A DNA stretch of 64,000 bases from Sphingomonas sp. JUb134 (lineage in GTDB: Bacteria; Pseudomonadota; Alphaproteobacteria; Sphingomonadales; Sphingomonadaceae). Location: assembly GCF_004341505.2 (NCBI RefSeq), contig NZ_SLYP02000001.1:1884501-1948500 (forward strand), in the 5' to 3' direction. A program made the position numbers and the translations under genes. Below, in pieces: positions 28,512-60,405 of this stretch. Every line of letters starts with the position of its first letter. The stretch's first letter is position 1. A model generated the notes under the pieces. That model had not been told where the DNA came from and made no database searches. It saw only the letters and a list, made by a program, of their open reading frames with translations.

Positions 28512-30233
28512 TTGGTACCTGAAATAGATAGTGATGACTTCGCACGACGCTTCGCGCTGCGACCTGGTCAGCTCATGTGGTTCTTGGGCGCGGGTGCGTC
28601 TGTTTCCGCAGGCGTGCCCACCGCCTGGGATATGACCTGGCAATTCAAGCAGATCCTCTATGCGGCCCAAAGGCGGGTGCCGCTTTCGACCATTGCCGAC
28701 ACCGGCAATCCGAGCGTGCGCGCGTTGCTCGACGCCCATGTCAGCGGATCGGGCAGCCTACCGCCTCCCGGCGCTCCGGACGAGTATGCGGCGCTCTTCG
28801 AAGCGGCCTACCCGGCCGAGAAGGACCGTAGGACGTTCATCGATGGCATGATCGGCGGTGCAAAGCCCGCTTATGGCCACCTGGCGCTCGCGGCCCTGCT
28901 GAAGGCAGGTCATGCTCATCTGATCTGGACCACGAACTTCGATCACCTTGTCGCGGATGCCTGTGCGCAGGCCTATGGCACCACCAAGTCTCTCAGCGTT
29001 GTGGCCCTCGACGCACCTAACCTAGCAGCCGAGCAGATTGCAGCGCAGCAATGGCCTATCGAGGTCAAGCTGCACGGAGATTTCAGGTCACGCCGGCTCA
29101 AGAACACGCCCGACGAGCTCCGGCAGCAGGATGCACAACTCAGAGAGGTCTTCGTCGACTCCTGCCGTCGGTACGGTCTGATCATCGGCGGCTATAGCGG
29201 ACGCGATGCGTCCATCATGGACGCCCTCGAGGCCACACTCGAGCGCCCCGGCGCCTTTCCCGGCGGGTTGTTCTGGCTTCATCGCGGCGAGGACTCACCA
29301 TTCGATCGCGTCAGCCAGCTGCTCGAACGCGCCCACACGGCTGGCGTCGACTGCGGGCTCGTCCGGATTGAGAATTTGGATGAAGCGCTACGCGATCTGG
29401 TGCGCCTGTTGCCTGACCTCGACACGACAGCGCTCGACAGCTTGGGTCAGAAGCAACGCTGGTGGACGGCCGCGCCGGCGCTGACCGGCAAACACAATTG
29501 GCCTCTGGTCCGATTGAACGGGATCGAGGTCGAGTCCATACCGACCAACGCCCGCCGCGTCGTTTGTGGGATCGGCGGGGCAGCAGATGTTCGGGATGCG
29601 ATACTCGCGGCAAAGGCAGATCTGATTGCTACCCGCACCAGCGGAGGCGTCATCGGGTTCGGCTCGGACCAGGAGTTCCGCTGCGTCTTCGAACCTTACG
29701 ATATCACGAACTTCGACCTGTCCGTGTTTGAGGATCGGCGACTGCGCTACGATTCCGGGGAACGAGGCTTGTTGCGAGAAGCGCTGGTTCGTGGGCTGTG
29801 CAATGCACATGGGCTTGATGCCCAGCGGCGACGCAACATCCATATCCTGGCCCCGCACGATCCGGATGATGAACATTGGGCTCCGCTTCGCAGCCTAGTG
29901 GGACCGGTCCGGGGTCAGATTGACGGTGGCAAGGTACGATGGCGCGAGGGGCTAGCGGTCCGTCTGGATTGGGCGGACGATCGCTTGTGGCTCTTGGTTG
30001 ATCCCCGCATCGATACGGACGACGATGGCTCTGCGGCGAGCCGGGCCAAGGCAGCCGACTTCGCGCGTGAGCGAACCGCTCGCCGCTATAACCGCGACGC
30101 GGACAAGCTCATCGACTTCTGGACAGGCCTGTTTGCCGGAGAGAACGTCCGGGCTCTGGGGATCGGAGACGGGATCGACGCTTCCTTCACTGTGGGACGA
30201 CGAACTGCGTTCTCGTACAGGGTGACGCCATGA
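28512..30233 (+). CDS. SIR2-APAZ protein of a short-Argonaute defence system (SPARSA-like)
   Basis: This 573-residue effector has an N-terminal SIR2 NADase domain: FLGAGASVSAG (residues 24-34), WTTNFDHL (Asn142), KLHGDF (catalytic His188) and IIGGYSGRD. The C-terminal half (about 300-573) has the position and size of the APAZ domain that binds the partner Argonaute. In known systems guide-directed target recognition by the Argonaute triggers NAD+ depletion and cell death or dormancy. I chose the TTG at 28512, preceded by AGGGG; the next in-frame ATG lies inside the NAD motif. Its stop overlaps the Argonaute start (ATGA). Catalytic residues look intact. Confidence 0.9.
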   Translation: MVPEIDSDDFARRFALRPGQLMWFLGAGASVSAGVPTAWDMTWQFKQILYAAQRRVPLSTIADTGNPSVRALLDAHVSGSGSLPPPGAPDEYAALFEAAYPAEKDRRTFIDGMIGGAKPAYGHLALAALLKAGHAHLIWTTNFDHLVADACAQAYGTTKSLSVVALDAPNLAAEQIAAQQWPIEVKLHGDFRSRRLKNTPDELRQQDAQLREVFVDSCRRYGLIIGGYSGRDASIMDALEATLERPGAFPGGLFWLHRGEDSPFDRVSQLLERAHTAGVDCGLVRIENLDEALRDLVRLLPDLDTTALDSLGQKQRWWTAAPALTGKHNWPLVRLNGIEVESIPTNARRVVCGIGGAADVRDAILAAKADLIATRTSGGVIGFGSDQEFRCVFEPYDITNFDLSVFEDRRLRYDSGERGLLREALVRGLCNAHGLDAQRRRNIHILAPHDPDDEHWAPLRSLVGPVRGQIDGGKVRWREGLAVRLDWADDRLWLLVDPRIDTDDDGSAASRAKAADFARERTARRYNRDADKLIDFWTGLFAGENVRALGIGDGIDASFTVGRRTAFSYRVTP

Positions 30234-31648
30234 GCAGCGAAGTCTCGCCCCATGTCTGGTACCCAGAACCGGAGCTCCTGTTCCATCCTGAGCGCACCGG
30301 CGACCGCGACATTCACCCGCTCCGCGGCCTCAAGCGTTTTGGCCCCTATTCCGCCTCGCAAGTACCCAGTCCTATCCGGGTCGCCACTATCGCACCAAGC
30401 GGAGAGTCCAACCGCCTGTTCGGCTTCATGCAAGAATTGCATCGGACCTTCTCGCCTCGCGAACGAACCGATTATCTTCCCGAATGGCCAGGTTTCTCGG
30501 CGGTGTTCAACACGCGGGTGACCGCCGCGCCGGCGAAGTGCCGGGTTGAGCTTGAGCCGGCACTGGACGCCGATCTGGCCGCGAGCCAAGCGCCCCATAC
30601 CCTGCTAGCCGACCGCCTTATCCAAGCCGTTCGCTCCTTGGAGGCGTTCCGCACCGAGTTCGACGTTCTGTTCGTCTACCTGCCCGATCGCTGGGCGGCC
30701 GCCTTCTTCGGGCAGGACGATGACTTCGATCTGCACGACTACCTGAAAGCCTTCGCCGCGGTCCGCGGAATGCCGATCCAGATCGTGCGTGAAGGGCGCG
30801 CGCTCTCCTATCCATGTCGAGCGAGCGTGATGTGGCGGATCGGCCTTGCCATCTATGCCAAGGCTGGCGGCATTCCTTGGAAATTGGCCGACACCAAAGC
30901 GGAAACGGCCTTCATCGGCATCTCCTATGCCGTTCGTAACGACGACAGCGGCAGCCCACGGTTCGTGACCTGCTGCAGCCAGGTTTTCGACGAGGACGGG
31001 GCTGGACTGGAGTTCATTGCGTTCGACACCAACGAGATCCAGGTGCAACGCGAGAACCCGTTTCTGTCGCGTGCCGAGATGTTTCGAGTGATTACGCGGT
31101 CCCTCGAGCTGTACAGGCGGCGGCATGGGGGGCGCTCACCGCGGCGCGTGATGATCCACAAGACGACCGAGTTCAAAGATGACGAGGTCGCCGGTTGCTT
31201 TGAGGCGCTACCGGTCTGCGAAGCGGTTGATCTCATCCAGCTCGTCGATGAGGTCGGGTGGCGGGGTGTCTGGTGGGAGCAGGACCCCAACAACCCGCGC
31301 CGCAATGAGGCTGCTGCCTACCCGGTGAAGCGGGGAACGCTGCTACAGCTCGGCCCACGCGACGCACTGCTCTGGATACACGGCGCGGTAGACGGCTTGG
31401 GCAAGCGTCCGCACCTGCAGGGAGGGCGAGGCACCCCCAAGCCGATCCGCCTCGTCCGCCATGCCGGACACGGCTCGTGGGATGACACAGCCATGGCGGC
31501 GCTGGCGCTCTCCAAGATGAATTGGAACAATGACGGGCTCTACGATCCTCTGCCCGTGACCATGAGCTATGCCAAGGTGCTGGCTCGGGTACTCAAAAGG
31601 ATGCCTCGATTGGGCAGTAGCCCGTTTCAGTTCCGGTTTTTCATGTGA
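30230..31648 (+). CDS. Short prokaryotic Argonaute (MID-PIWI), catalytically inactive
   Basis: This 472-residue protein lacks N and PAZ domains and consists of MID plus PIWI, the length usual for short pAgo proteins. The first PIWI strand reads TAFIGISYAV, with Ser232 where catalytic Argonautes have Asp, so slicing is unlikely; loss of the DEDX tetrad is normal in this class. The C-terminus (HAGHGSWDDTAMAALALSK and RFFM at the end) matches the PIWI end that contacts the guide 5' region. It is the guide-loaded sensor for the SIR2-APAZ effector encoded just upstream, with which it overlaps by four bases. Confidence 0.88.
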   Translation: MSSEVSPHVWYPEPELLFHPERTGDRDIHPLRGLKRFGPYSASQVPSPIRVATIAPSGESNRLFGFMQELHRTFSPRERTDYLPEWPGFSAVFNTRVTAAPAKCRVELEPALDADLAASQAPHTLLADRLIQAVRSLEAFRTEFDVLFVYLPDRWAAAFFGQDDDFDLHDYLKAFAAVRGMPIQIVREGRALSYPCRASVMWRIGLAIYAKAGGIPWKLADTKAETAFIGISYAVRNDDSGSPRFVTCCSQVFDEDGAGLEFIAFDTNEIQVQRENPFLSRAEMFRVITRSLELYRRRHGGRSPRRVMIHKTTEFKDDEVAGCFEALPVCEAVDLIQLVDEVGWRGVWWEQDPNNPRRNEAAAYPVKRGTLLQLGPRDALLWIHGAVDGLGKRPHLQGGRGTPKPIRLVRHAGHGSWDDTAMAALALSKMNWNNDGLYDPLPVTMSYAKVLARVLKRMPRLGSSPFQFRFFM

Positions 31649-31914: not shown

Positions 31915-32433
31915 GTGAGTGACAATACCCAAACAGCAGCGCCTGACGCCTCGGCCAAGCCGAAGAAGGGAAACGGCGGGTCAGCGAACAAATGGGGCGC
32001 CAAGGTGATCGCCTTGGGTTTCTGTATCCTGCCTTCCCTGCTGCTGCGCGCGCAACGCCGTCTCGGGCTCAATCCGACGCAATTGGCTGTGCTGATCCAG
32101 CTGGCGGACTTCTGGTGGGATGCCGGCCGCAAGCCGTTCCCGAAGAAGGCGGACCTTGCTCAGCGTCTCGGCCTGAGCGAACGGCAGGTGCAGCGGTACA
32201 TCGCGGAATTGGAAGAGGCGGGGTTCGTGCGCCGTATCGAGCGGCGTGCTTCGCACCGTGGCAAGATTTCGAACGAGTATGACCTTCAGGGTTTGGTCGA
32301 CAAGCTGGCCGAGATCGAACCCGACTTCCGGGAGGCAGCCGAGGATGCGCGGGCGAAGCGCGGTGCAGCGGCCCGGCCAGGTCTGCGCCGGCGGGGCAAG
32401 CCGGTCGCTACTGCCGCTTCAGAAGAGGCTTAA
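31915..32433 (+). CDS. Helix-turn-helix protein coupled to DUF3800
   Basis: This 172-residue protein has a central winged helix-turn-helix (about residues 65-115), with KADLAQRLGLSERQVQRYI as the DNA-binding pair, and a basic C-terminal tail. The N-terminal 30 residues are low-complexity and lysine-rich. I chose the GTG at 31915 because TAAGGAG lies seven bases upstream; an open stretch to 31825 has no such site. The next gene starts directly after its stop. It could regulate the DUF3800 gene or act as a DNA-targeting partner. Its place beside a pAgo system suggests defence, but no known system was matched. Confidence 0.75.
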   Translation: MSDNTQTAAPDASAKPKKGNGGSANKWGAKVIALGFCILPSLLLRAQRRLGLNPTQLAVLIQLADFWWDAGRKPFPKKADLAQRLGLSERQVQRYIAELEEAGFVRRIERRASHRGKISNEYDLQGLVDKLAEIEPDFREAAEDARAKRGAAARPGLRRRGKPVATAASEEA

Positions 32434-33045
32434 GTGGCCGTTCGCCTCAACAAGAAGGTCCTGTGCTTCATCGACGAATATGGGACGGCTGGGACCGCGC
32501 CGTTTCATCTCGGCGCGGTGTTCGTGCTGGCGAGCGAGGCTGGCCGGCTGGACAAGGGATTCAGCGATCTCCTCGAGGCGAACGCCAACGAGATCCACGC
32601 GGTGAACCTTACCGATGCCTATTTGCAAGGTCTGCTTGGTCGGCTGCGTGCTGGATCACACCTCGACCGAGTGGTCATGGTCAACCAGAAGTTTCCCGTT
32701 CAGGAAGGCGATCCGCCGGTTCTCTACGCTCAGGCGGTAGTGGAGACAGTGAAGATCGGCCTTAAGCGGTTTCGGCCGGTTCTGGGGAGGGACAGCGTCT
32801 CGAACGTGGACGTCATCACTGACGTAAACCAGCATAACAACTATCCGAGCTTCGCAGGTGAGCTCGAGCGAGCACGGCGAGACGATGGTCGTTTTCGGGG
32901 CGTCAATCGTGTCGTCCGATTGGACTCTGCGGCGTCTCGTCTGCTGCAGCTTGCTGACGTTGTCGCTTATGCCCGCAAGTGGATCGTTGCGGAGGAGTTC
33001 AATGCTCGAGGGCTGGGTGAGCGCTTCGGCATCGAGCTTCTCTGA
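32434..33045 (+). CDS. DUF3800 domain protein
   Basis: This 203-residue protein starts with the DUF3800 signature FIDEYG (usually FIDESG) and ends with LLQLADVVAYA; between them are VDVITDVNQHNN and DSAASRLLQLAD. The family has an RNase H-like arrangement of acidic residues and is common in mobile and defence loci, but its activity has not been settled. GTG 32434 follows the previous stop without a gap, so the pair is translationally coupled. The stop codon overlaps the T-tract of a minus-strand terminator. Confidence 0.8.
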   Translation: MAVRLNKKVLCFIDEYGTAGTAPFHLGAVFVLASEAGRLDKGFSDLLEANANEIHAVNLTDAYLQGLLGRLRAGSHLDRVVMVNQKFPVQEGDPPVLYAQAVVETVKIGLKRFRPVLGRDSVSNVDVITDVNQHNNYPSFAGELERARRDDGRFRGVNRVVRLDSAASRLLQLADVVAYARKWIVAEEFNARGLGERFGIELL

Positions 33046-33681: not shown

Positions 33682-34758
33682 ATGATAAACAAGAACACGG
33701 ACTTCGCCTTGCTGCGGGTCGAAGCGATAGGTGACGTGTCAGCCGAGATGCGAGAGTTTCTCGCTCAGAGCGCAGAAAACTATATCGACAAGCGCCTGGG
33801 CGGCTGCGAGCGATTGCCAGCCTCCATTATCAAGAAGCTGGAACAATATTACACCAGTCCCTCCTTCGCGGGAGTGATGATTCAATTCCTCAATCGACAT
33901 GTCGCGCTGGAGCGCTATTTGGTGGTAGAGCCGAGCGCAGGCGATGCGACGATTTCCAGATTGCTACCGGTGGGGAGCATCTCTTTCGATGTCTGGCCTC
34001 GAGCCGAACAGGTCATCAAGGCAGACTTTCTTGCGCTTGCGATCGATCACAGCGGCCCTGTCGCCGTAATTGGAAATCCGCCGTTCAGCGCCGCTGTGTC
34101 GTTCTTCAATCACGCGGCGTCGCAAGCCGAGGTGATCGCGATGATCCTGCCCAGGACATTCAGGAAGGATTCGGTGCTCAGCAGGCTCGATCGTAGATTT
34201 CACCTAGTGGGGGAGATTGACGTGCCCGCCGACGCCTTCTTGCGCGCAGGTGAGCCCTACGATGTTCCAGCAGTGTTTCAGATATGGGAGAAGCGCGACA
34301 CCTTACGTCCGATCGCCCCGAGGCGCACGACCCATCCCGATTTCAGGTTCGGGACGTCTGTGGGCGCAGACTTTGCGATTCAGCGGGTAGGGGCCAACGC
34401 GGGACGTGTCCATCGCGAGTTCGGCCGAAGCGGTGAGGCGCACCTGTTCGTCACGGTGACCGCTGTACGCTCCGCCAAGCACGTCGAGGCGATCATGAAG
34501 GGGCTTCCGCTCGCCAGCGTCGCGAGAAACACCGCCGGCAATCCGAGTATCGCCGCGTCCGAGATCGTGGCGCTTTACAGCGACGCGGTCAGTTCACGTT
34601 GGTGTCGGCAAGTCACGACCGCTTCGTCTGCTTACACTCTGGCATGCCGGTATCGGCCTACGAAGCGGAAAATGATCACCCAGCCAGCGGTATACGGCGC
34701 GGTCCAGCGCATGCGCACCATCAGCGACGGTGGGCGATGTGCCAGGATGAGCAGCTGA
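33682..34758 (+). CDS. N6-adenine DNA methyltransferase-like protein with aberrant C-terminus
   Basis: This is a 358-residue SAM-dependent methyltransferase-like protein. VVEPSAGDATIS (near residue 82) is motif I for SAM binding, and GNPPFSAAV (near 132) is the NPPF catalytic motif of N6-adenine enzymes; YYTSPSF near residue 55 fits the motif X region. From about residue 300 the sequence becomes rich in Arg, Ser and Cys and no longer looks coherent, so the gene may be truncated or frameshifted near 34590. No restriction subunit is adjacent. It could be an orphan methylase or a remnant of a restriction system. Confidence 0.65.
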   Translation: MINKNTDFALLRVEAIGDVSAEMREFLAQSAENYIDKRLGGCERLPASIIKKLEQYYTSPSFAGVMIQFLNRHVALERYLVVEPSAGDATISRLLPVGSISFDVWPRAEQVIKADFLALAIDHSGPVAVIGNPPFSAAVSFFNHAASQAEVIAMILPRTFRKDSVLSRLDRRFHLVGEIDVPADAFLRAGEPYDVPAVFQIWEKRDTLRPIAPRRTTHPDFRFGTSVGADFAIQRVGANAGRVHREFGRSGEAHLFVTVTAVRSAKHVEAIMKGLPLASVARNTAGNPSIAASEIVALYSDAVSSRWCRQVTTASSAYTLACRYRPTKRKMITQPAVYGAVQRMRTISDGGRCARMSS

Positions 34759-34919
34759 AGGACACAGTTGGGCGCTGGTGACCAGCAGCTTGTGAGTCCA
34801 GGCGCCGCCGGCTCGATCTTGGGTTAGCTGACCCACGATAGAGGTGACTAGCAGCAATCCAGCGCTGATCCTGAAGACGAGCGGCGCCTGCCGCAACGAC
34901 ATACCGAGCCGCGTTGTCC

Positions 34920-35537
34920 TCATGCCGCGATCTTCGGCATCGCTGGCCGGTTGGCCCGGCACCAGTTTTCCCAAGCGACCCGCCCGGCAGCGTTGCTGCG
35001 CGGAGAGCACCACTGGTGGCGCAGGCTGTGCCAAAGCTGCTCGCTGCGCGGCGTCGGGATGCCGTACATGCAGTTCAGCCCGGACTGCTCATGCTTCCTG
35101 GCCTTGGTGCGCCGCTCGCGCGCGGCGAGGAGATATCGACCCATGAGGTATTCGGCCGGCGCCTCGAAAAGGCTGTCGAGCATCTGGTAGCGGGTACGCT
35201 CAGCGATGATCTGCGCCGCGCGCTCGATCTCGTCCCTGTCCTTGTCGCTGGCGTGCTCGCGTGCGAGCTGCTCGAGGTCGGCGAGGAAACGGTCGCGATC
35301 GACGATCACGATGCGGTACCCCGTTTCGAGGTCTGCCGCGATCTGGCGGAGCGCGGCCCCGTAGCTCTTCGCACCGCGTGCGGTCAGCTTCACCATCGGG
35401 CGCAGCTCGAGCTGGAAGCGCCCGTCTGCGTGATGGTGGACGACGAGCGAGTCGTCGATCGCGGTCAGATGGTAGCGATACTCGCGAGCGGTATACATCG
35501 GGTGGATAACGACGAGCCTGGCGGGGTGGGTGTCCAT
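34920..35537 (-). CDS. Hypothetical protein, last gene of the unknown operon
   Basis: This 205-residue soluble protein was not recognised. It begins MDTHPARLVVIHPMYTAREY; the middle is helical and charged (FLADLEQLAREHASDKDRDE), and the C-terminus contains GLNCMYGIPTPRSEQLWHSL and a Trp-rich end. It follows the gene at 35568 by 30 bases on the same strand. It is the most distal gene of a six-gene minus-strand group whose likely promoter is the repeat-rich region near 38500. Confidence 0.6.
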   Translation of the reverse strand: MDTHPARLVVIHPMYTAREYRYHLTAIDDSLVVHHHADGRFQLELRPMVKLTARGAKSYGAALRQIAADLETGYRIVIVDRDRFLADLEQLAREHASDKDRDEIERAAQIIAERTRYQMLDSLFEAPAEYLMGRYLLAARERRTKARKHEQSGLNCMYGIPTPRSEQLWHSLRHQWCSPRSNAAGRVAWENWCRANRPAMPKIAA

Positions 35538-35567
35538 GATGTGTTCCTCTGAATGTGGGGAGCCGGC

Positions 35568-36095
35568 TCAGCGGCCGAGATTGCGGGGAAGCGGCGTGGC
35601 GTAGGGCGTGCCGCCGAAGACGAGCTGCTGAAGCAGCGCCTGCCCGCTCGCGATGCCGAGCATGCGATCGGCCTTGTTGCGGTATGGGAGCCGCGGCGCG
35701 GGACTGATCCCGGCGGCGTCGATCGCGATCGCCACGCCGGCGTCATCGGCCGAGACGAGGAACGCGCCTCGCTTGGGCACCGTCCACAGCCGCAGCGCCG
35801 GGTAATGCACCGCGTCACCTTCGCCGGGGAGGACCGCGTCGATCTCGAATGTATGCCCCGACAGCATCTTGTCGGTCCAGGTGGCAAGGACGCTGACGCC
35901 CTCCTTCAGCGCAAATGCCCTGAGCGCAAAGGGATCGATGGCGCGGGTCTCGTCGCCGGCGACGATGACGAGGTTGCCGGGGAGCACCAGCGCTCGCGAT
36001 ACGATCCCGAAATATCTTTCCACGCCGTCGTTTCTGATGAAGCTGGCGAGCGCGTTGATGGCGCGCTCGCGCGCCGAACGGGGGTCCTTGAGCAT
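35568..36095 (-). CDS. Hypothetical protein of the unknown operon (LW-VP family member)
   Basis: This 175-residue soluble protein was not recognised. It contains LVIVAGDETRAIDPFALRAF followed later by LRLWTVPKRGAFLVSADDAG. The spacing resembles two other products of the same operon (36153 and 37686), which carry ALIVSSAGEGTPMFA with LWLVPDVDG, and ALIAVTTAAPPMFA with LWLVPERAG. I infer an ancient duplication. No catalytic motif is obvious. Confidence 0.6.
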   Translation of the reverse strand: MLKDPRSARERAINALASFIRNDGVERYFGIVSRALVLPGNLVIVAGDETRAIDPFALRAFALKEGVSVLATWTDKMLSGHTFEIDAVLPGEGDAVHYPALRLWTVPKRGAFLVSADDAGVAIAIDAAGISPAPRLPYRNKADRMLGIASGQALLQQLVFGGTPYATPLPRNLGR

Positions 36096-36152
36096 GTGGG
36101 TGACCTTCTCTTGCTCCCCACGTCGCGGGGCCTTTCATCGATCCTCACAGGA

Positions 36153-36656
36153 TCACCCTCCCACCACCTCCCGCATCCAGGCCGCGGCGCGGTCGAGCCC
36201 GGCCTGGCGTTCGCTCGCGAGCACCCATGGCACGGTCGCCACGTGATGCAGCGCATCGACGAGATGAAAGGCGAAGGGCGTTGCGCCATCGACGTCGGGC
36301 ACGAGCCACAGCTCACTGGTGTCGGCGAGCCACGGCAGCAGCGGCTGCGTCCACACCGTCTCGCTCCGCGCCCACGTCGCCATGGCGAACATGGGCGTGC
36401 CCTCGCCCGCAGACGACACGATGAGCGCGTCGCTGCGCGCCTCGCGCACGACGGGCTCCACCTGTCGCGTCGCGAATGGCAGCGCGGCGCTGGTGGGCAC
36501 CAGCAGCAGCTGCGCCGCGTCGACGTACAGGAACTGCGCGAAGCTGGTAGTCGGCAGCGGGCCGCGATCGAAGCGCCAGCCGACCCTGGCCGCCACGGCC
36601 AGCGCCAGCTGAAGCGCGCGGGCTTCCGCCGCGACGCGCTTGTCGTTCGGTATCAT
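36153..36656 (-). CDS. Hypothetical protein of the unknown operon (LW-VP family member)
   Basis: This 167-residue soluble protein begins at ATG 36656 and is preceded by the stop of the antitoxin-like gene (36668). SDALIVSSAGEGTPMFAMAT and ELWLVPDVDGATPFAF are the segments that resemble the products at 35568 and 37686. The N-terminal third is alanine-rich and helical. The frame is open for 13 codons upstream of the chosen start, overlapping the previous gene. Confidence 0.58.
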   Translation of the reverse strand: MIPNDKRVAAEARALQLALAVAARVGWRFDRGPLPTTSFAQFLYVDAAQLLLVPTSAALPFATRQVEPVVREARSDALIVSSAGEGTPMFAMATWARSETVWTQPLLPWLADTSELWLVPDVDGATPFAFHLVDALHHVATVPWVLASERQAGLDRAAAWMREVVGG

Positions 36657-36667
36657 CGATTTGCCTT

Positions 36668-37063
36668 TCAGGAGTAAGTGTCGGCCACCCGCCACATCTT
36701 CACCTTGGGAAGCGGCAGGGTGCCTGCGACGCAGCGCGGCTGCCGCAGACCCGCCACGTCGATCGGCCGGCGCAGCGCCTCGCCGATCGACACGCCGCCG
36801 AGCTCGGCGACCGGGCGCTCAATCGCGGCCGCGATCGCGCGGCTGTCGTGCCCGCACCGCAGCTCCAGCCGGATCAGGACGTTGAGGAGGAATGCGCTGC
36901 GCTCGGCAAGGCCCTCGCCGGAGCTGACGATCTCGCCCGCTGCCACCAGGCGCTCGGCCTCATCGGCATTGATCCCCAGCGACGAGCAGGCCAGCCCCGC
37001 ATCGAGCCGATGCGTGTGGAGAAGGCGGCCGATCTCGGCCACCTCCCACTCTCCGCCGCTCAT
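36668..37063 (-). CDS. Hypothetical protein, weakly like MbcA/ParS/Xre antitoxins
   Basis: This 131-residue helical protein begins MSGGEWEVAEIGRLLH. An N-terminal helical pair around SSLGINADEAERLVAAGE, followed by RSAFLLNVLIRLELRCG and VAELGGVSIGEALRRPIDV, resembles the toxin-binding half of Xre/MbcA-type antitoxins. The start overlaps the stop of the MobA/L-like gene (ATGA). A RES-domain or similar toxin is not visible next to it, so the assignment to a toxin-antitoxin pair is not supported beyond this likeness. Confidence 0.5.
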   Translation of the reverse strand: MSGGEWEVAEIGRLLHTHRLDAGLACSSLGINADEAERLVAAGEIVSSGEGLAERSAFLLNVLIRLELRCGHDSRAIAAAIERPVAELGGVSIGEALRRPIDVAGLRQPRCVAGTLPLPKVKMWRVADTYS

Positions 37064-37686
37064 AGCGACGCCAGCAGCGCGTCGAAGCGCGCGCGCACCA
37101 TCGGCCAAACCCGGTCGCCGTTCAGCGCGGCGACGTGGCCGCCCCAGCCGATCCCCGTCAGCGTGCGAACGCCGAGAAGGATGTGGCAGTGCGGGGTCGC
37201 GGTGTTGGCGACGAGCCCCGGCACGTGCTGGACCACCAGCGCGGGGACCGAGAATTCATCGACGAGTTCGGTCGTCAGCGTGTGCGCCAACCGCCAGGCA
37301 CGGTGCAGCCGCGCCGGCGTCCATGTCAGCGTGACGTAGGTGAGCAGCGCCTTGGCGCCTGCCACGTACGCGGCGTCGATGTCGGTGAACAGCACCTTAG
37401 GGCACGTGAACCGGTTGTCGGCATCGCGCGGCAGGATGACCTCATGTCGGTATGCGTTGGACCGCCACGGCTGGTCGGCCGCATCGACGTCGATCAGCAG
37501 CTTGGCGGCGGCGAACTCGGCGGCGCTGTTGGCGCGCTCACGGTGCAGAGGCCGCAGCGTGCCCGTCATGCACCGGGGCGCCGCGGCCATGTCGGCGGGA
37601 TCACCGTTAAGGATCAGCCAGGTGTGGGGATTGCTCGCACTGAGCGGCGTATCGGCGTTGATCACGACCGGCTTTGACGCACCCAT
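37060..37686 (-). CDS. MobA/MobL-like protein (relaxase-type His motif)
   Basis: This 208-residue protein has LVVQHVPGLVANTATPHCHI followed by LLGVRTLTGIGWGG. That resembles the HUH segment of MobA/MobL relaxases, where a PHxHxLL/TR pattern binds the metal. No N-terminal Tyr-containing relaxase motif was found and the protein is short, so it is either a derived family member or a fragment recruited to a new use. Its start shares one base with the stop at 37686 and its stop overlaps the next start, so it sits inside a tightly coupled operon. Confidence 0.5.
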   Translation of the reverse strand: MGASKPVVINADTPLSASNPHTWLILNGDPADMAAAPRCMTGTLRPLHRERANSAAEFAAAKLLIDVDAADQPWRSNAYRHEVILPRDADNRFTCPKVLFTDIDAAYVAGAKALLTYVTLTWTPARLHRAWRLAHTLTTELVDEFSVPALVVQHVPGLVANTATPHCHILLGVRTLTGIGWGGHVAALNGDRVWPMVRARFDALLASL

Positions 37687-38198
37687 CAGCGCACCTCCAC
37701 CGGCTGGAGGATGCGCGCCATGTCGCAAGCGGCGCGCCTGACCCCACGCTCGCGCTCGGTGAGCGTCGAGAAGGGCGGCACCATCTCGAGGCAGAAGCCG
37801 GTGGGCGTGATCGACACCGAGGGACCGGCTCGCTCCGGCACCAGCCACAGGCCGCTCGCGTCGCGGTACAGCGCGAAGTTACGCTCGACCCAGACGGCAC
37901 ACGGCAGCGAGCCGAGCGCGAAGTCGGCAGCGATCACACCTCGCCCAGCGTCGCCGAGGCGCAGCAGCACGACGTCAAGACGGTGCTCGCCGGCGATCGC
38001 CTCCAGGCTGCCGGCGAACATCGGCGGGGCGGCGGTGGTCACCGCGATGAGCGCGTCGCGCTCGGGCACGTGCAGGGCGGGCGTCGGCAGGCCGCGCACC
38101 GGCACATAATCGTAGGTGTCGCTGGCGCCGAGCGCCTCCAGCAGCAGGCCGGTCGCGGTGCTCGAAGGGCTGCAGCCCAGCGGGGTAGTCATATCCAT
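37686..38198 (-). CDS. Hypothetical protein, first gene of the unknown operon (LW-VP family member)
   Basis: This 170-residue soluble protein was not recognised. DALIAVTTAAPPMFAGSLEA and GLWLVPERAGPSVSIT align by eye with segments of the products at 36153 and 35568. LEMVPPFSTLTERERGVRRA near the end is charged and helical. It is the first gene downstream of the repeat-rich region at 38476-38607, which likely holds the operon's promoter. Its stop and the next start share one base. Confidence 0.6.
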   Translation of the reverse strand: MDMTTPLGCSPSSTATGLLLEALGASDTYDYVPVRGLPTPALHVPERDALIAVTTAAPPMFAGSLEAIAGEHRLDVVLLRLGDAGRGVIAADFALGSLPCAVWVERNFALYRDASGLWLVPERAGPSVSITPTGFCLEMVPPFSTLTERERGVRRAACDMARILQPVEVR

Positions 38199-46028: not shown

Positions 46029-46030
46029 TC

Positions 46031-52764: not shown

Positions 52765-54738
52765 ATGACTTTGTCGGACATGCCGGTCGTGCCGGTCCTC
52801 GTCGCGATCGTGCTCCTTACGTTCGCCTACGCGTTCGTGCGCCACTTCCACCTTCCCGCGAAGAAGCTGGACGGCTCGCTCGACGATGTGATCCGGAAGC
52901 TCGATGCGGCGCGCGCCGCCGGACAGCTGGAACTCGCCTCCTGCTTCGCCGGCGACGAGCGGCTTGCCGCCATCTGGCAGGAGTACGGCGAGACGTTGCA
53001 CACGCAGCGGGAGATCGATCCGTCGACGGGCGAGTTCGCGGTTCGTGCGGTGCGATCGACGGTGCCCGCCGAGGTCTACTTCTCGCCGCATTCAGTGGTC
53101 GACGGCCGGGTCCACGCCGAGTTCTTCAAGCACCTGCCGGGCATCTTCACCGGCGTCGGCATCATCGGCACGTTCTTCGGGCTGCTGAAGGGATTGTGGC
53201 TGTTCCGCATCTCCGAGGACGCAGGCGTGGTGCGCAACAGCCTCACCTCCCTCCTGCACGGGGTCAGCGAAGCGTTTGCGGTCTCTGCCTTCGCTATCCT
53301 GCTCGCCATGGTCGCCACCGTGCTGGAGAAGTATCGGCTGAACAGCCTGTACGGCAAGGTCGGCAGGCTCGCCCACGCCATCGACGCCACCTACGAGGCC
53401 GGGGCCGGCGAGGAGTACCTGGCACGCCTCGTCTCCTCGTCCGAGGAATCAGCCAGCCAGACCCGGATCCTCAAGGACGCCCTGGTCTCAGACCTGAAGG
53501 AGATCCTGACTGACCTCGCCGAGCGCCAGATTGCGGCGACGACGCAACGCTCGGGCGAACTCGGGACGTCGATCGCCAGCGCGCTCACCGACGCATTGAG
53601 GGAGCCGCTCGACCAGATCGCGGGTGCCGTCGGACGCGTCAGCCAGGATCAGTCGTCCGCCGTCACGCAGCTTCTCACCGACGTGCTCGCCAGCTTCAGC
53701 GACCGGCTCGAAGGCATGTTCGGAAGCCAGCTCTCCGGCATCGGTGACATGCAGCAGCGGACGGTCGATGCGATGCAGACGGCGGTGGCGCGACTCCAAG
53801 ATCTGACCGCCGGCATGGAAGCGGCCGGCACCAGGGCCACGGACGCAATGTCGGCCAAGCTGATGGAGGCAGTCGAGGCCGCCGAGGCGCGACAGACGGC
53901 GATCACCGAGGAGCTGCGCACCGCGCTATCCGAGATGCGCTCCGGCCAGGGGGCGGCGCAGGAGCAGACCCGGTCCCGCCTCGAGGGAATGCTGGACGAT
54001 CTGGGCCGGCGGCTCGGGGAGGCCGTGGCCGGCATCGAGCGCACCGCGGAGGAGCGGTCGCGGCGTCAGGCTGAGGACGACGGCCGCCGGTCGGAGGCTG
54101 CTGCCCGGCAGGTCGCCGGCATGGGGGAGAGCGTCGGCGCGTTGACAACCAACGTGGACACCATGCTCGCCGCCGTGCGGGAGATGGTCTCCCGGATCGA
54201 GCTCGCGACGTCCGACGCCTTCTCACGGCTCAACGGCGGCGCCGACACCCTTTTGGCCGCCGCTGGCCGCTTCGAAACTTCGGGCCGGGAGGCGGCCGAC
54301 GGGTTCTCCCGGATCGCCACGGTGACGTCCGGTCTCGCCGACGCGGCGGGCAGCGTGGCTGGCGCGGCGCGCAGCCTCGACTCGGTCATGGCCGACTACC
54401 GAAGCGCCCGGGACGCGGTCGGAACCATGGTGGAGGGACTGCGCGCCACGGTGGAGAGCGCGTCAAGGGAGGCGTCGCTCACCGCCGACGTGCTCTCCCG
54501 CATCGAGGGCGCTGCCCAACGGCTCGCCGCGGCCCAGGTCGAGGCGGACGGGTTCCTCGACGAGGTGGCGCAGGTGATCGCCACATCGCACGAGAAGTTC
54601 TCCGAGGGCATGCGCGGCACGGTGGTGGATGCCAATCGGCAGTTCCATGCCGAGCTGTCGCAAGCGACCGGGCTGCTCAGGGAGACCATTCAGGAGCTCG
54701 AGTTCGCGCTGCCGCAGGGCGGCCGGCGGGCGGCCTGA
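52765..54738 (+). CDS. zorA: Zorya ZorA, MotA/ExbB-like membrane protein with long tail
   Basis: This 657-residue protein has three membrane segments (about 8-25, 126-145 and 169-187) with GIFTGVGIIGTFFGLLKGL and AFAVSAFAILLAMVATVLE, as in MotA/ExbB/TolQ stators. Residues 230-657 are a very long coiled-coil tail reaching into the cytoplasm, the hallmark of ZorA. With ZorB it forms a proton-driven motor that senses phage invasion and signals through the tail. It is followed by zorB after 5 bases. Order and lengths match type I Zorya. Confidence 0.93.
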   Translation: MTLSDMPVVPVLVAIVLLTFAYAFVRHFHLPAKKLDGSLDDVIRKLDAARAAGQLELASCFAGDERLAAIWQEYGETLHTQREIDPSTGEFAVRAVRSTVPAEVYFSPHSVVDGRVHAEFFKHLPGIFTGVGIIGTFFGLLKGLWLFRISEDAGVVRNSLTSLLHGVSEAFAVSAFAILLAMVATVLEKYRLNSLYGKVGRLAHAIDATYEAGAGEEYLARLVSSSEESASQTRILKDALVSDLKEILTDLAERQIAATTQRSGELGTSIASALTDALREPLDQIAGAVGRVSQDQSSAVTQLLTDVLASFSDRLEGMFGSQLSGIGDMQQRTVDAMQTAVARLQDLTAGMEAAGTRATDAMSAKLMEAVEAAEARQTAITEELRTALSEMRSGQGAAQEQTRSRLEGMLDDLGRRLGEAVAGIERTAEERSRRQAEDDGRRSEAAARQVAGMGESVGALTTNVDTMLAAVREMVSRIELATSDAFSRLNGGADTLLAAAGRFETSGREAADGFSRIATVTSGLADAAGSVAGAARSLDSVMADYRSARDAVGTMVEGLRATVESASREASLTADVLSRIEGAAQRLAAAQVEADGFLDEVAQVIATSHEKFSEGMRGTVVDANRQFHAELSQATGLLRETIQELEFALPQGGRRAA

Positions 54739-54743: not shown

Positions 54744-55460
54744 GTGTTTGGACATCGCCATGCCATCGCGCCGCGCGGACGCGACGAGGGCGAGAAGCCC
54801 TTCTGGATCTCCTTCGCCGACCTGATGACGGCGCTGATGGTGCTGTTCCTTCTCGTCATGAGCGTCGCGCTGCTCGCCGTCACGAGGACGATCTCGGAGC
54901 GGGAGCGCCTCGAGAGCCAGAGGCAGGACGCCATCGAGCAACTGCTCGGACGCATCGAGAAGGCGGCCGAGCGCCAGCCGGGGGTTCATGTCGACCGGAA
55001 CCGGGCGGTCATCGACTTCGGCGATCGCGCCCGCTTCGATACATCGAGCCATACGCTGAGCCCCGAACAGGAGCGGTTGCTGCGCGCGTTCGTCCCTGAG
55101 GTGCTCACGATCGCGCGGGATAAGGCGGGAAAGCGCTGGCTCAAGCGCATCGTCGTCGAGGGCTTCACCGACCGGCGCGGAAGCTACCTCTACAACCTCA
55201 ATCTCAGCCTTCAGCGCAGTCAGCGGGTGCTATGCGCGCTGATGGCGAGGCCAGGTCCCGACGAACGGGCGATGTCCCGCTCCGAGCTGGAGGAGGTCCG
55301 TCGGCTGTTCCTCGTCGGCGGCTACTCGTCAAATTCGGCGCGAGAGTCACTCGATGCGAGCCGTCGGATCGAGCTTCGCCTCGAGTTCTTCGGAGTGGAG
55401 GAACCCGCCGCCTCAGAGGCAGCCGGCTACCAAGGCGAGTTCGGTCTATGCGCCCTCTGA
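54744..55460 (+). CDS. zorB: Zorya ZorB, MotB-like stator with OmpA domain
   Basis: This 238-residue protein has a cytoplasmic leader, one membrane helix with the proton-carrying Asp26 in SFADLMTALMVLFLLVM, a linker and a periplasmic OmpA-like peptidoglycan-binding domain (IVVEGFTDRRGSYLYN; LSLQRSQRV). The essential Asp is intact. It overlaps zorC by 13 bases. Confidence 0.93.
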   Translation: MFGHRHAIAPRGRDEGEKPFWISFADLMTALMVLFLLVMSVALLAVTRTISERERLESQRQDAIEQLLGRIEKAAERQPGVHVDRNRAVIDFGDRARFDTSSHTLSPEQERLLRAFVPEVLTIARDKAGKRWLKRIVVEGFTDRRGSYLYNLNLSLQRSQRVLCALMARPGPDERAMSRSELEEVRRLFLVGGYSSNSARESLDASRRIELRLEFFGVEEPAASEAAGYQGEFGLCAL

Positions 55461-57163
55461 GCCCGCGTTCGGTCAAGCTGGCCGAGCGGATGCGTGCGGT
55501 CGCAGAGGCGGCCCTCGGCAGCATGCCCGATCCCGATTTGGCCGAACTCAGATCCGAGATCCGTCAGCTCAAGGACATGCTAGGCGGCGCGGGCGCGGGT
55601 GCCGGAGCGGCGCCCGACCGCGTGCGCGAGCAGGTCTCGCTGTTCCGCCGGACCGGCACGCTGCCCGACGTCCGGGCGGCGCGCCTGGTTTGCTGGGGCA
55701 CCACGCTCCGCGACGGGCGAGATCCCGCGCTGATCGAGGATCGCGAGCGATTTCCTGGTCTGATCGACGGCGTGGACGAGTTCCGCGACATGCGCCGACC
55801 CTACCGGCGCTGCTGGCGCGGCCTGCTGGACGGCTACGTCCGCTACGATCCGGGCGACGCGACCGAAGCAGGACGCCGCAACTGGACCATGCTGCGCGAC
55901 TACCTGAACGCCAATCTGCCCTCGCTCGAGCGGTCGGGCAGCGTGCCCGATTGGCTGTCCACCATCGATGAGCACCCGAACCTGCTCGGGGAACGGCCCT
56001 GCGCTCGCTACGGAGCGGCGCTGCTCGAAGGCGATGCGAAGCTCCTGGAACCGCTCCGGCGCGACCTGTCGATGGGAGACTCCTCCTGGCTGACCAGGCG
56101 CATCTTCGAGGCCCAGATCGATGCCGCGGTCAACCACGACGACCGGGCACTGCGTCGGATCATGCCCAGATTGGTCGCTCTCCTCGCGGAGCACGACCTC
56201 CTGGCGGACGGCGCGCTTGTGCGTGTGCTCGACCGATGGGCGAGATGCCGCCCGCTCGAAGTGGAGGCGGAACTCCGAGATCTGTCGGTCGCTCGCTGGG
56301 GCAATCCCTGGCTGGAGCGCAACGACACGCAGTGGACGAGGGTCGAGGCGGAAACGCGCCAGATGGTCTCGTCCTGGCTCAAGCTGTCGCTGATCGAGAA
56401 ATTCTTCTCGCTGCTGTCCGAGGACAAACTGAACGACCAGCGGCGGGTGGCATTCTGGAAGCGCTACGTCGACCGGATCGACGACATGCACTTCGCACTT
56501 GGCGAGGCGGCCTACACCAGCCCGAGCGCGGATTTCCGCGCACTGCGCAAGGCGATGGCGGGCAAGCTCCTGCGCCTCGACAACGGTGGCGTCGCCCGCA
56601 ACAACGCCTTCATCATGCGCCTGGGTGGACACGTCGTGGTTGAGTTCGGCGAGCACGGCAATGCCATGTACGCCTTCGACGCGGCCTCTGCCCCTTTCGA
56701 CCTCCGCCGTCCATCCATCTCGGGCAACAGAACGGCGCTGAAGCACCCGTCGCACGTGGCGCGCATCACGCACACCGACGGCGGCGAGAGGTGGGAGCGC
56801 AAGTTCGAGCGGAGGCTGGCAGAGGTGCTCGGCCGCGCCGGCAAGGCACCTACCGCCGCCCTTTCAACGGTATCCTCGCCGACAGCGGCTCCTCCGATCC
56901 GTCCCGCGCCGACCTCCATTCCGACCGTAGTCCCCCCCGTAGAAACCAAGCCGCAGGAAATGCGGCAAGCGGCCTCGGAGCCGCACGCCGTGCGAGACCT
57001 GCACGCCTTTCTCGCCGAGCACAGGGTTAAGTTCGCCGACCTGCGCGACAAGGGTGGCTCCCTCTGGGCATATGCGCCGGAGCGTGGCCCCGCCGCCGAT
57101 GGCCTGCGGAGCCGCGGGTTCGCCTGGTCCGCCCGCCGGGGCGCCTGGTTCCTCAAGTCGTGA
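55448..57163 (+). CDS. zorC: Zorya ZorC, EH-signature domain protein
   Basis: This 571-residue protein begins at ATG 55448 inside the end of zorB. The EH-signature region lies around FWKRYVDRIDDMHFALGEA (about residues 335-355). A Pro/Thr-rich linker near 475-500 precedes a small C-terminal domain (FAWSARRGAWFL at the end). In Zorya type I, ZorC is a DNA-binding component that acts with ZorD. It overlaps zorD by four bases (GTGA). Only type I systems carry this gene. Confidence 0.92.
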   Translation: MRPLSPRSVKLAERMRAVAEAALGSMPDPDLAELRSEIRQLKDMLGGAGAGAGAAPDRVREQVSLFRRTGTLPDVRAARLVCWGTTLRDGRDPALIEDRERFPGLIDGVDEFRDMRRPYRRCWRGLLDGYVRYDPGDATEAGRRNWTMLRDYLNANLPSLERSGSVPDWLSTIDEHPNLLGERPCARYGAALLEGDAKLLEPLRRDLSMGDSSWLTRRIFEAQIDAAVNHDDRALRRIMPRLVALLAEHDLLADGALVRVLDRWARCRPLEVEAELRDLSVARWGNPWLERNDTQWTRVEAETRQMVSSWLKLSLIEKFFSLLSEDKLNDQRRVAFWKRYVDRIDDMHFALGEAAYTSPSADFRALRKAMAGKLLRLDNGGVARNNAFIMRLGGHVVVEFGEHGNAMYAFDAASAPFDLRRPSISGNRTALKHPSHVARITHTDGGERWERKFERRLAEVLGRAGKAPTAALSTVSSPTAAPPIRPAPTSIPTVVPPVETKPQEMRQAASEPHAVRDLHAFLAEHRVKFADLRDKGGSLWAYAPERGPAADGLRSRGFAWSARRGAWFLKS

Positions 57164-60100
57164 TCTGGCGCCGGAGATCTTCGGCTTCGGCGCCGATCGC
57201 AGCAGCGTCGACCGAGGGCGAGCAACGCATTCGTGTAGAGCCGGAAGGATTGATCTTCCCGGCTGACGGCGTCCCACCTTCGATCGGGGTCGCCGCTGCG
57301 GCCCTGCTGGAGGAACTGGAGGACGAGGGGCTCGCCACCACCGTGGAGGGAGTTCGCCGCATCGGCTGGCGCGAGCTCTACACGATCCTCGACGACACGG
57401 TGCGGGCTGCGGACCTACCCGTCCTGAACCTTCCCGAGTCGGTTCTCGCCGTACCGCGTCTGGTCAGCAGGGGGTCGCTGACCGATACCGGCTTCGCCGT
57501 AGCGATCGATGGCTGGCTCGATGGCGACGGGCGCATAATCCACGGTGCGAGACTGCATGGCGGCGCGCTGGAGATCGAGGGCGTGCCGCACCTGCTGCCG
57601 CCCGCCGCTTGGCGGCTCGTGGATCGGGTCGCGGCCTTCGGCCGTCGCGGGCCCGACGAGCGGGGGGAGGGAGCGCAACGGCTCGCCTGGGGCGCGATAC
57701 GCGCCGAGGCGCTTGCGGTCGGCGCGGCGCTCGACGACTTCCTCTTCCGCACGGTCGTGCTGACCCCCGACCGCCTCCAGATCGCACTCCGGCGGTCGGA
57801 TCGCCTCGGGTTGGTCGAGGTCGAGCCCTGGTTCGAGGGAGCGCCCACGCACTGGCTCCAGGCCTTTGATCGCTCTGCTCAGGTCCGGGATCGCTACGAT
57901 CTCGTCACGCCAGATGGCGTGGTCCAGGTCATGGTGTCGCCCGAGGTCGGGACGGTGCTGCGAGAGCTGAAGCGCATGCCTGGTCGCCGCCTCGCGGGCG
58001 AGCGCGCTCAGGCCTTCCTGGTCAATCCCATCGCAGCCCTCGGCCCGGATGCCGCCGAGGTCATCGACCAGGAGGCGTTCGAGGCGGCAAAGGAGGAGGC
58101 CGGCATCTCCTTCGACCGGTTCGCGGCGATCACACCCGAGACGCACGGTGACGGCGCGCTCGGGCTGCTGGTCACTTCCGGGACGGGCGAGCGCATCGAG
58201 ACGAGCGAGATATCGCTGAGTGACGAGGACGCGCTTGAGTTTGTGGCGCGCGTCGAGGACCATGTCGCTCGTGGTCTGCAGCTTTGCGCGTGGGATGACT
58301 TCGAGTTCGAACTCGATGGCGACAGCGCACTGCACTGCGCGGCGCTGCGGCGCGCGGTCGGCCGACGTGCGGCGTCCGTGATCAGCCATGGGCAGATCTA
58401 CGATCTCTCGGGCTACTCGGACCGTGTGGACGGCATCGGGGAGGAGCGGCCGTTCTACTCGCCCCACATCGCGCGCAAGAGCGACGATGCGGGCTGGTTT
58501 CCCGACAACCTCGTACCGATCATCGGCTGGAACGATCCGACTACCGGCGAGCCTGGGTCCGCACCACTGACCGACGAGCTGGCGGAGCGGCTGCGGAGCG
58601 ATGTGGAGGAGGCCCGTCGGATTGGAGCCGGAGCCGTTAAGGTGCCGGGCTGCCCGGTGCCGATGCCGGTGCGCGAAGCCGAGGCGATCCTCAAGGCGTT
58701 CGGGCGCGTCCGCGTGGAGGCGGAGGCGGGCACGCTCGACCCCGCGCATGCGGCTCCGAGCCGGAAGCGGCCTACGCTCATCTTGAAGGCCAATATAGAG
58801 CAGGTCGACTATCGGGAGGAGCGGCTGGCCGCCATGTCGGCGCCACCCGGGCCACCACGCCTTCCCGCAGGTCTGCGCGAAGAGGTCCGCCTGAAGGACC
58901 ATCAGCTGGAGGGGCTCGCATGGTTGCAGCACCTGTTCGGCCTAGCGCCCAACCGGTGCCGCGGCGCCCTGCTCGCCGACGACATGGGGCTAGGCAAGAC
59001 ACTTCAGATCCTCAGCCTTATGGCGCGCGCGAGGGAGGACGATCCCGCCACGCCTCCCGCGCTCGTCGTCGCGCCCCTCACTCTTCTCGAGAACTGGCGC
59101 GAGGAGGCCGAGAAGTTCCTGCGGCCTGGATCACTGAAGATCCTCACGGCCTACGGCGACACGCTGTCCGGGTTGAGGGTGGGCAAGTCGTCGGTCGACG
59201 AGCAGCTCCGTCGCGAGGGGCTTGTCCGTTTTCTTAGACCCGACTGGCGCGGCGACGCGGACGTGGTGTTGACGACGTACGAGACGCTGCGCGACCTGGA
59301 GTTCTCGTTCGCCCGTGAGCGCTGGTCCATCATGGTCTGCGACGAGGCGCAAAAGATCAAGAACCCCAACGCGTCCATGACCCGCGCGGCGAAAAAGCAG
59401 CAGGCCACGTTCAGGATCGCGTGCACCGGCACGCCCGTCGAGAACAGCCTGGTCGACCTCTGGTGCCTCTTCGATTTCGTGCAACCCGGACTGCTGGGCG
59501 CGCTGAACGAGTTCGGGAGCACCTACCGTCGGCCGATCGAGGCGGAGGGCGACGCCGACCGCGCGAAGCTGGAGGAGCTCAGGACGCTCATCGAGCCGCA
59601 GATCCTGCGACGCATGAAGTCGGAGGTCGCGGCCGATCTCAAGGCCAAGCTCGTGGACGAGGCGAGCCGACGCCTGCCGATGAGCATCCCGCAGAGGGGG
59701 CTCTATGTTGGCGCGATCGAGGGCTTTCGTCGTGAAGCAGGCCGGCCGGGCGCGCACCTTGGCCTGCTGCATCGGCTGCGGCTGATCTGCTCGGAGCCGG
59801 CCCAGGCGGAGGAGACCGGGTCGTATGACTCGATCGACGCCTATCGCGCCCGCTCGCCGAAGCTCGATTGGCTACTGTCTACGCTCGCTGCGGTCAGGGA
59901 GCGTCGCGAGAAGGTGATCGTCTTTTGCGAGTTCAAGGCCGTGCAGAGACTGCTGCGCCACTACATTCGCGAGGCGTTTGCGATCCCCGTCGATGTCATC
60001 AACGGCGATACGTCGGCGGCAGCTGGAGCGGCGGACAGCCGACAGAAGCGCATCCGGACCTTCCAGGAGGCACCAGGATTTGGTGTGATCATCCTGTCGC

Positions 60101-60405
60101 CTGTAGCGGTTGGCTTCGGCGTCAACATGCAGGCCGCCAACCACGTGATCCACTTCACCCGGACCTGGAACCCTGCGAAGGAGGACCAGGCTACCGATCG
60201 CGCATATCGTATAGGGCAGAGACGCGACGTATTCGTCTACTACCCGACGGTCGCTGCCGACGACTTCAAGACCTTCGATGTGAAGCTGGACGAACTGCTT
60301 GAACGCAAGCGGGCGTTGGCGGGCGACATGCTAAACGGAACCGGCGAGATCGGCGCAAAGGACTTCAACGTAGACGAGCTGCGACCGCATCCTGATCGGA
60401 ACTGA
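57160..60405 (+). CDS. zorD: Zorya ZorD, SNF2-type helicase/nuclease
   Basis: This 1081-residue protein has a large N-terminal region (1-560) and a C-terminal Swi2/Snf2 motor: LLADDMGLGKTLQIL (about 604-618), VVLTTYETLRD, MVCDEAQKIKNP (about 727), CTGTPVENSLVDLWCLFDF, VIVFCEFKAVQRLL and ATDRAYRIGQRRD. ZorD proteins degrade or process invading DNA after activation. The start is GTG, overlapping the zorC stop. Motor motifs look complete, so the system should be functional. The next 182 bases hold no gene. Confidence 0.93.
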   Translation: MIWRRRSSASAPIAAASTEGEQRIRVEPEGLIFPADGVPPSIGVAAAALLEELEDEGLATTVEGVRRIGWRELYTILDDTVRAADLPVLNLPESVLAVPRLVSRGSLTDTGFAVAIDGWLDGDGRIIHGARLHGGALEIEGVPHLLPPAAWRLVDRVAAFGRRGPDERGEGAQRLAWGAIRAEALAVGAALDDFLFRTVVLTPDRLQIALRRSDRLGLVEVEPWFEGAPTHWLQAFDRSAQVRDRYDLVTPDGVVQVMVSPEVGTVLRELKRMPGRRLAGERAQAFLVNPIAALGPDAAEVIDQEAFEAAKEEAGISFDRFAAITPETHGDGALGLLVTSGTGERIETSEISLSDEDALEFVARVEDHVARGLQLCAWDDFEFELDGDSALHCAALRRAVGRRAASVISHGQIYDLSGYSDRVDGIGEERPFYSPHIARKSDDAGWFPDNLVPIIGWNDPTTGEPGSAPLTDELAERLRSDVEEARRIGAGAVKVPGCPVPMPVREAEAILKAFGRVRVEAEAGTLDPAHAAPSRKRPTLILKANIEQVDYREERLAAMSAPPGPPRLPAGLREEVRLKDHQLEGLAWLQHLFGLAPNRCRGALLADDMGLGKTLQILSLMARAREDDPATPPALVVAPLTLLENWREEAEKFLRPGSLKILTAYGDTLSGLRVGKSSVDEQLRREGLVRFLRPDWRGDADVVLTTYETLRDLEFSFARERWSIMVCDEAQKIKNPNASMTRAAKKQQATFRIACTGTPVENSLVDLWCLFDFVQPGLLGALNEFGSTYRRPIEAEGDADRAKLEELRTLIEPQILRRMKSEVAADLKAKLVDEASRRLPMSIPQRGLYVGAIEGFRREAGRPGAHLGLLHRLRLICSEPAQAEETGSYDSIDAYRARSPKLDWLLSTLAAVRERREKVIVFCEFKAVQRLLRHYIREAFAIPVDVINGDTSAAAGAADSRQKRIRTFQEAPGFGVIILSPVAVGFGVNMQAANHVIHFTRTWNPAKEDQATDRAYRIGQRRDVFVYYPTVAADDFKTFDVKLDELLERKRALAGDMLNGTGEIGAKDFNVDELRPHPDRN

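Follow-up and report, generated by a model that had tools for sequence, protein, structure and literature searches.

Mosaic defence island in Sphingomonas sp. JUb134, probably assembled from independently moving cassettes, one of them related to mobilisation

New immune systems are sought in defence islands by their proximity to known immune genes, and a 32 kb block in the genome of Sphingomonas sp. JUb134 raises the question of how far this rule carries: do the unnamed genes that stand between named defence systems serve defence themselves? The block (nucleotides 28512–60405) lies in the window, by which we mean the whole analysed stretch of 64,000 nucleotides. An earlier note had described it as a composite defence island and had proposed its unnamed genes as defence candidates by association; its observation was right and its inference half right. 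With a probability of roughly 80%, we read the block as a mosaic defence island of independently moving cassettes that reaches from a DUF1254 gene to the LysR/dgcN locus and holds three known systems, a nuclease/helicase unit and a mobilisation-related cassette (Table 1).

Table 1 Genes of the block, with window coordinates, strand and the matches or homologues that characterise them
Feature	Position	Strand	Evidence and remarks
SIR2-APAZ protein of SPARSA	28575..30233	+	PADLOC PDLC02401 E 1e-176; Pfam SIR2_2 E 7e-14
Short prokaryotic Argonaute of SPARSA	30230..31648	+	PADLOC pAgo_I PDLC02377 E 3.7e-196
HTH_36/DnaD_N-like protein, gene 1 of HTH/DUF3800 cassette	31915..32433	+	Pfam HTH_36 E 9.5e-15, DnaD_N E 3.8e-13
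DUF3800 protein, gene 2 of HTH/DUF3800 cassette	32434..33045	+	Pfam DUF3800 E 4.5e-8
Methyltransferase-like gene	33682..34758	+	PADLOC MTase_II E 2.8e-38; travels with the relaxase-like cluster
205-aa protein (family G205)	34920..35537	-	67% identical in G006, 83% in Ag1
Third ~170-aa paralogue	35568..36095	-	P170 family
Second ~170-aa paralogue	36153..36656	-	P170 family
131-aa protein (family D131)	36668..37063	-	accompanies the module in 4 of 51 loci
208-aa MobQ relaxase-like protein	37060..37686	-	three His kept; no catalytic tyrosine
First ~170-aa paralogue	37686..38198	-	P170 family; directly upstream of the relaxase-like gene
A319 protein	38764..39588 (ORF opens 38629)	+	divergent from the cluster; 87% identical in the same place in Ag1
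266-aa accessory gene of nuclease/helicase unit	40015..40815	-	L118 has a 72% homologue next to its nuclease/helicase
111-aa accessory gene	40886..41221	-	in L118, a 56% homologue directly follows the nuclease/helicase
COG2251-type fusion	41221..44625	-	RecB-like nuclease with cluster-type cysteines, DEDD exonuclease-like domain, SF1 helicase
WYL/WCX transcription regulator	44726..45721	+	divergent; Pfam WYL E 2.2e-8, WCX E 7.3e-14
DUF3892 small protein	45765..46028	-	Pfam E 1.5e-8; conserved next to the unit in L119, in L131 and on plasmid pSA2
71-aa protein	46031..46246	-	internal tandem repeat D1 (79 nt, 80%); two copies of a short motif
SngC, helicase of Shango	46626..48827	-	PADLOC PDLC03960 E 7.3e-240
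SngB, BrxC/BrxD-like ATPase of Shango	48808..50091	-	PADLOC PDLC03959 E 2.2e-174; Pfam BrxC_BrxD E 5e-150
SngA, TerB-domain protein of Shango	50088..52532	-	PADLOC PDLC03958 E 2.3e-79; TerB_N, TerB, TerB_C
ZorA of type I Zorya	52780..54738	+	PADLOC PDLC00598 E 2.6e-228
ZorB of type I Zorya	54744..55460	+	PADLOC PDLC00611 E 1.2e-102
ZorC of type I Zorya	55448..57163	+	PADLOC PDLC00613 E 2.6e-181; EH_Signature
ZorD of type I Zorya	57160..60405	+	PADLOC PDLC00632 1,394 bits; SNF2-rel_dom

The gene model combines a codon-score caller with profile scans. PADLOC and Pfam scans recovered every item that had been named in the block, each in its place, as well as the flanking DUF1254 and DUF1611 (dgcN-family) genes, and they support the description as a composite defence island. 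From left to right the block carries (i) SPARSA (28.6–31.6 kb), the HTH_36 and DUF3800 genes (31.9–33.0), the methyltransferase-like gene (33.7–34.8) and six minus-strand genes (34.9–38.2); (ii) the divergent A319 gene (38.6–39.6), followed on the minus strand by two small genes and the nuclease/helicase gene (40.0–44.6); and (iii) the divergent WYL/WCX gene (44.7–45.7), the genes of the DUF3892 and 71-aa repeat proteins (45.8–46.2), Shango on the minus strand (46.6–52.5) and Zorya (52.8–60.4).

The defence-system search found SPARSA, Shango and type I Zorya each complete, and we take them as three of the cassettes; together they account for 16.6 kb, about half of the block. A SIR2-APAZ gene adjoins a short class I pAgo gene, as SPARSA is defined; position 28,512 is the TTG start of the SIR2-APAZ open reading frame, and the codon score favours 28,575. 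Genes for a TerB-domain protein, an ATPase and a helicase stand together, as Shango is defined. This operon had been described from its domains as TerB/DUF2791/helicase, which is accurate; its identity as a published system had gone unmentioned. Zorya has ZorA, ZorB, ZorC and ZorD in the order that defines type I.

Among the remaining genes, the unit around the 1,134-aa nuclease/helicase gains support as a defence candidate. The protein matches TIGR03491 (E 3.5e-89) at 299.9 bits, three times the curated cut-off of 97.45, and the Pfam families RNase_H_2 (E 2.7e-26), AAA_12 (E 4.5e-26) and AAA_11. Invariant in 13 aligned rows are the RecB-like nuclease residues, four cysteines, the acidic residues of the exonuclease and the Walker A and DEAGQ cores, under what we take to be the names of these motifs; the score above the curated cut-off and the intact nuclease, exonuclease and helicase motifs place the protein in COG2251/TIGR03491. 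Of the HTH, WYL and WCX parts expected of a BrxR-type defence regulator, the divergent protein showed WYL and WCX and matched no HTH family in Pfam up to E 1; a WYL homologue adjoins the nuclease/helicase in 11 of 14 fetched loci. At E 1e-100 the nuclease/helicase occurs in 14 of 151 genus genomes, its own included, and at E 1e-60 in 66 plasmid records; in six plasmid regions that we viewed, an annotated WYL gene stands beside it in three and is absent in three. The 266-aa accessory gene was found in 2 of 151 genomes, including its own. The 71-aa protein has an 86% homologue beside the unit in L119 and a match on plasmid pSA2.

We compared gene neighbourhoods by matching sets of neighbouring proteins of at least 80 aa to PADLOC models. 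The nuclease/helicase set comprised six genes either side (136 proteins, 14 loci), and the matches listed include a dGTPase (3/136, two of the three being, by position, pieces of one L131 gene), PtuA (2), PtuB (2), GajB (2) and a ThsB-type TIR protein (3). The models matched came to 161 for the 136 proteins around the nuclease/helicase vs 82 for the 136 around the relaxase-like module treated below, in tallies that count models (25 listed), not proteins, and that rest on different neighbour ranges. A control at the dgcN locus (108 proteins of at least 80 aa and without window homologue, from 8 loci, plus ZorD) matched 55 models, 22 of them by ZorD.

Individual loci of the nuclease/helicase vary. 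On plasmid pA of Phenylobacterium sp. LH3H17 (L160, 71363-84278), a multiubiquitin/E2/ThiF/DUF6527 run and a hypothetical gene are followed 19 bases on by the nuclease/helicase gene; on a Mesorhizobium plasmid, genes for DUF4007 and a cysteine desulfurase lie near it. In L131 (G471:C1:151000-170900) the gene is in pieces, beside genes that by eye resemble a dGTPase, a DNA methyltransferase and a recombinase. Defence genes are not what surrounds the unit on plasmid pSA2, where its neighbours are SOS-type repair and arsenic genes. The defence candidacy of the nuclease/helicase and its WYL partner is strengthened by neighbours that match models of Septu, Gabija, dGTPase and TIR type, together with the Phenylobacterium and Mesorhizobium plasmid loci. 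What the proteins of this fourth cassette (40,015–46,246) and of the fifth would do biochemically we infer: the fourth, which has a putative WYL-type regulator in divergent orientation, would degrade invading DNA once switched on. BrxR-type WYL regulators are co-localised with defence systems in 48% of cases, according to a portion of PMC9122601. Among the papers listed by our literature searches, one of which showed 15 of 58, we found no report of a defence role for TM0106-family nucleases, nor of a divergent WYL partner.

The pair next to SPARSA is a mobile cassette with no clear tie to defence. It is present in 5 of 151 genomes including its own and is also carried by a Novosphingobium plasmid. 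Its two genes are adjacent and in the same order in all four further loci; three of these are >99% identical, so that the four count as about two cases. Neighbouring genes resemble, by eye, resolvases, a transposase and a toxin-antitoxin pair.

The six-gene cluster and its two outer genes form the fifth cassette (33,682–39,588). The cluster's six frames are uninterrupted in the window and run on the minus strand; plus-strand frames at 34.9–38.4 kb gave nothing useful in scans, and codon scoring decided for the minus strand. The methyltransferase-like gene has no Pfam match at E 0.1, and homologues occupy the corresponding cluster end in Sphingomonas sp. Ag1 (49%) and G006 (35%). Homology to Ag1 at the DNA level falls into three pieces, the first starting at 34,061 and the last ending at 39,764.

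The central 208-aa protein has a relaxase fold in its predicted model and the three metal-binding histidines, whose columns in profile A3 hold His in 62/62, 60/61 and 61/61 ungapped rows. Unlike A1, the larger profile A3 had no match among PDB chains up to E 1. At the position that we take to be that of the catalytic tyrosine of motif I, marked by Tyr25 of TraA, all 14 TraA rows have Tyr and none of 60 relaxase-like rows does, nor has any of them a Tyr within six columns; this inspection covered the 60 rows, with the 40 loci L069–L108 outside it. The window protein has tyrosines at 79, 107 and 117 only, and among the 13 rows of A1 there is one, L021, in which a Tyr follows the site at a distance of three columns. 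We considered and rejected the protein as a MobQ relaxase: the catalytic tyrosine is missing, and its NF041496 score is 19.7 bits vs a curated cut-off of 200. Its ~170-aa partners belong to a family of 24 members linked by phmmer (P170); their predicted models score 85.8 in the best of five and 57.5–68.8 in the others, and the model is uncertain. A search for their fold, in which the restriction-endonuclease fold of PD-(D/E)XK nucleases was considered, led to no clear assignment among the families compared. No paper on a MobQ paralogue without the tyrosine surfaced among those listed in literature searches.

To describe the surroundings of the relaxase-like gene we used 51 loci that match it, namely nine searched places, Ag1, one plasmid and 40 places that rank among the better scores of the match list; a further locus, L027, was excluded when it turned out to encode a full TraA. 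A P170 gene lies upstream on the same strand in 39 of these loci. MobA/MobL-type relaxases accompany this core pair in 18/51 and integrases in 9/51, where MobL, P170 and integrase calls derive from our own profiles and match-midpoint distances within stretches of at most ~30 kb. An unnamed family of ~162 aa (S162) occurs at most 6 kb from the module in 14 of the 51 (L019, L020, L021, L026, L071 and others). A search for attachment repeats near the integrase gave nothing above 14 bases in Ag1 and 12 bases in G076. An origin as a phage satellite was discarded, with no relatives in 50,697 phage records and none among 24 viral-contig pattern matches.

That all unnamed genes of the block, the six-gene cluster included, are phage-defence genes is an unlikely reading on these data. 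They do stand between three known systems, and in G115, where the cluster occurs in a long version, it has WYL-like, 1,737-aa helicase-like and OLD-like ATPase genes, named by eye, within ~12 kb. The module's neighbour set (two genes either side, 136 proteins, without L018 and L027) yielded, among the matches listed, mad2 (5/136), a type I methyltransferase (2/136) and type IIG restriction (2/136). Against this reading stand the MobA/MobL-type and integrase genes that accompany the core pair, the relaxase fold predicted for the key protein, and the smaller number of PADLOC models matched around it than around the nuclease/helicase, though counted in models and over a different neighbour range. 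The cluster thus adjoins defence genes at times and transfer genes at times, as expected of a mobile-element passenger or of an anti-transfer system, and its resemblance to DNA-transfer machinery means that adjacency to defence genes is no proof of a defence role. It may still have one, because the long G115 version lies among defence-like genes. Whether an unnamed gene here is a defence candidate therefore depends on the gene: the proposal gains strength for the nuclease/helicase and WYL genes and loses most of it for the six-gene cluster. Conserved order outside defence islands, which the earlier note had named as the finding that would speak against it, is largely what the cluster displays, with G115 and the mad2 and restriction-modification neighbours counting the other way.

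We also consider it doubtful that the cluster is what ongoing decay has left of a mobilisable element and that it serves no function at present. This genome has no match to the relaxase family PF03389, and in Ag1 the 131-aa gene is reduced to a short frame, merely 74 aa being called. Decay is at odds with six open frames in the window and with pairwise dN/dS vs Ag1 and G006 of 0.12–0.42 over seven genes (five of the six cluster genes, the 131-aa gene being left out, the methyltransferase-like gene, and A319 in the Ag1 comparison only), values that carry no significance test. They are 0.12–0.21 for the relaxase-like and 205-aa genes, the latter giving 0.12 vs G006 and 0.21 vs Ag1.

We favour a mobilisation-related role for the fifth cassette. 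The relaxase-like protein, encoded with its ~170-aa partners, with its metal-binding histidines and without the nicking tyrosine, would bind single-stranded transfer-origin DNA and so assist or regulate a MobA/MobL-type relaxase wherever such an enzyme occurs. When a search finds none, which is the case here, the cluster may hitch-hike or act on incoming transfer DNA. A more specific proposal, which we hold to be quite improbable, is that the P170 and tyrosine-less relaxase module constitutes an unnamed immunity against DNA transfer: when MobQ-type elements come in, the nicking-dead relaxase would occupy their transfer-origin strands and, helped by the P170 partners, block or redirect relaxase action, as an exclusion function of mobile elements that defence islands would capture once the active relaxase is lost, as here.

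How the block arose is addressed by its edges and its composition. On the right, it is followed by a LysR gene, the dgcN-family gene (DUF1611) and the neighbour that accompanies this gene in relatives; the LysR/dgcN locus of eight relatives is without island genes in the fetched 20 kb. On the left lie DUF1254 matches, one with an internal TAG. This gene (26246-27562) adjoins the left edge and has the TAG within the matched frame, so that the island abuts a broken gene. DUF1254 matches were found in 5 of 61 genomes, weakly outside its own, and relatives do not share the left flank, so that the comparison suggested for presence or absence of the block yielded no empty site. The cassettes have differing coding scores, parts of the block are met on their own in other places (the cluster in Ag1, the nuclease unit on pSA2 and the HTH/DUF3800 pair on a different plasmid), and our searches of the block gave no tRNA or Rfam family, no long or outstanding direct repeat around it and no integrase among the genes scanned with Pfam; for these reasons we regard the island as a mosaic. 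We hold a single entry of all 32 kb as one integrative element to be quite improbable. The block is contiguous, its left half has stretches of lower G+C content than the flanks, and the right-hand locus of the eight relatives shows no island gene in the fetched 20 kb; against a single entry speak the lack of insertion marks in our searches and the separate occurrence of the block's parts.

The preferred mosaic thus displays both outcomes of the proximity rule at one locus: the nuclease/helicase and its WYL partner gain independent support from their neighbourhoods elsewhere, and the relaxase-like cluster proves to have its kin in mobilisation machinery. A tyrosine-less relaxase fold that combines low dN/dS and paralogous partners with a wide occurrence in a bacterial family poses the question of whether it helps transfer or stops it.

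Compared with known systems, SPARSA and type I Zorya appear, as judged from sequence, the same as described, with SIR2-APAZ and short pAgo in order in the former, four genes in order in the latter, and no notable difference found in either. Shango likewise appears to agree in its TerB-domain protein, BrxC/D-like ATPase and DEAD/DEAH helicase, with 3/3 PADLOC models matched; the one notable difference is the longer TerB protein of the window (an 844 aa ORF vs 528 model positions). An anti-phage system of three genes, TerB, ATPase and helicase, is described in an excerpt of PMC10250203. The nuclease/helicase shares with the COG2251/TM0106 family, as far as the consulted section of PMC3985635 describes it, the PD-(D/E)XK-like nuclease, the RNase H-like domain and the AAA domains; there, COG2251 proteins with tandem AAA domains are called uncharacterised and presumably 3'-5' exonucleases. 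From MobQ relaxases (MobA of R1162, NES, TraA) the 208-aa family differs in the tyrosine at the catalytic column (0/60), and the window protein further in having no additional domain and in being encoded with paralogous P170 proteins. The MobA/MobL relaxases (PF03389) that stand beside the module belong to the same superfamily as the 208-aa protein; they measure ~650–1,090 aa, and three of the four scanned exceed the Pfam cut-off.
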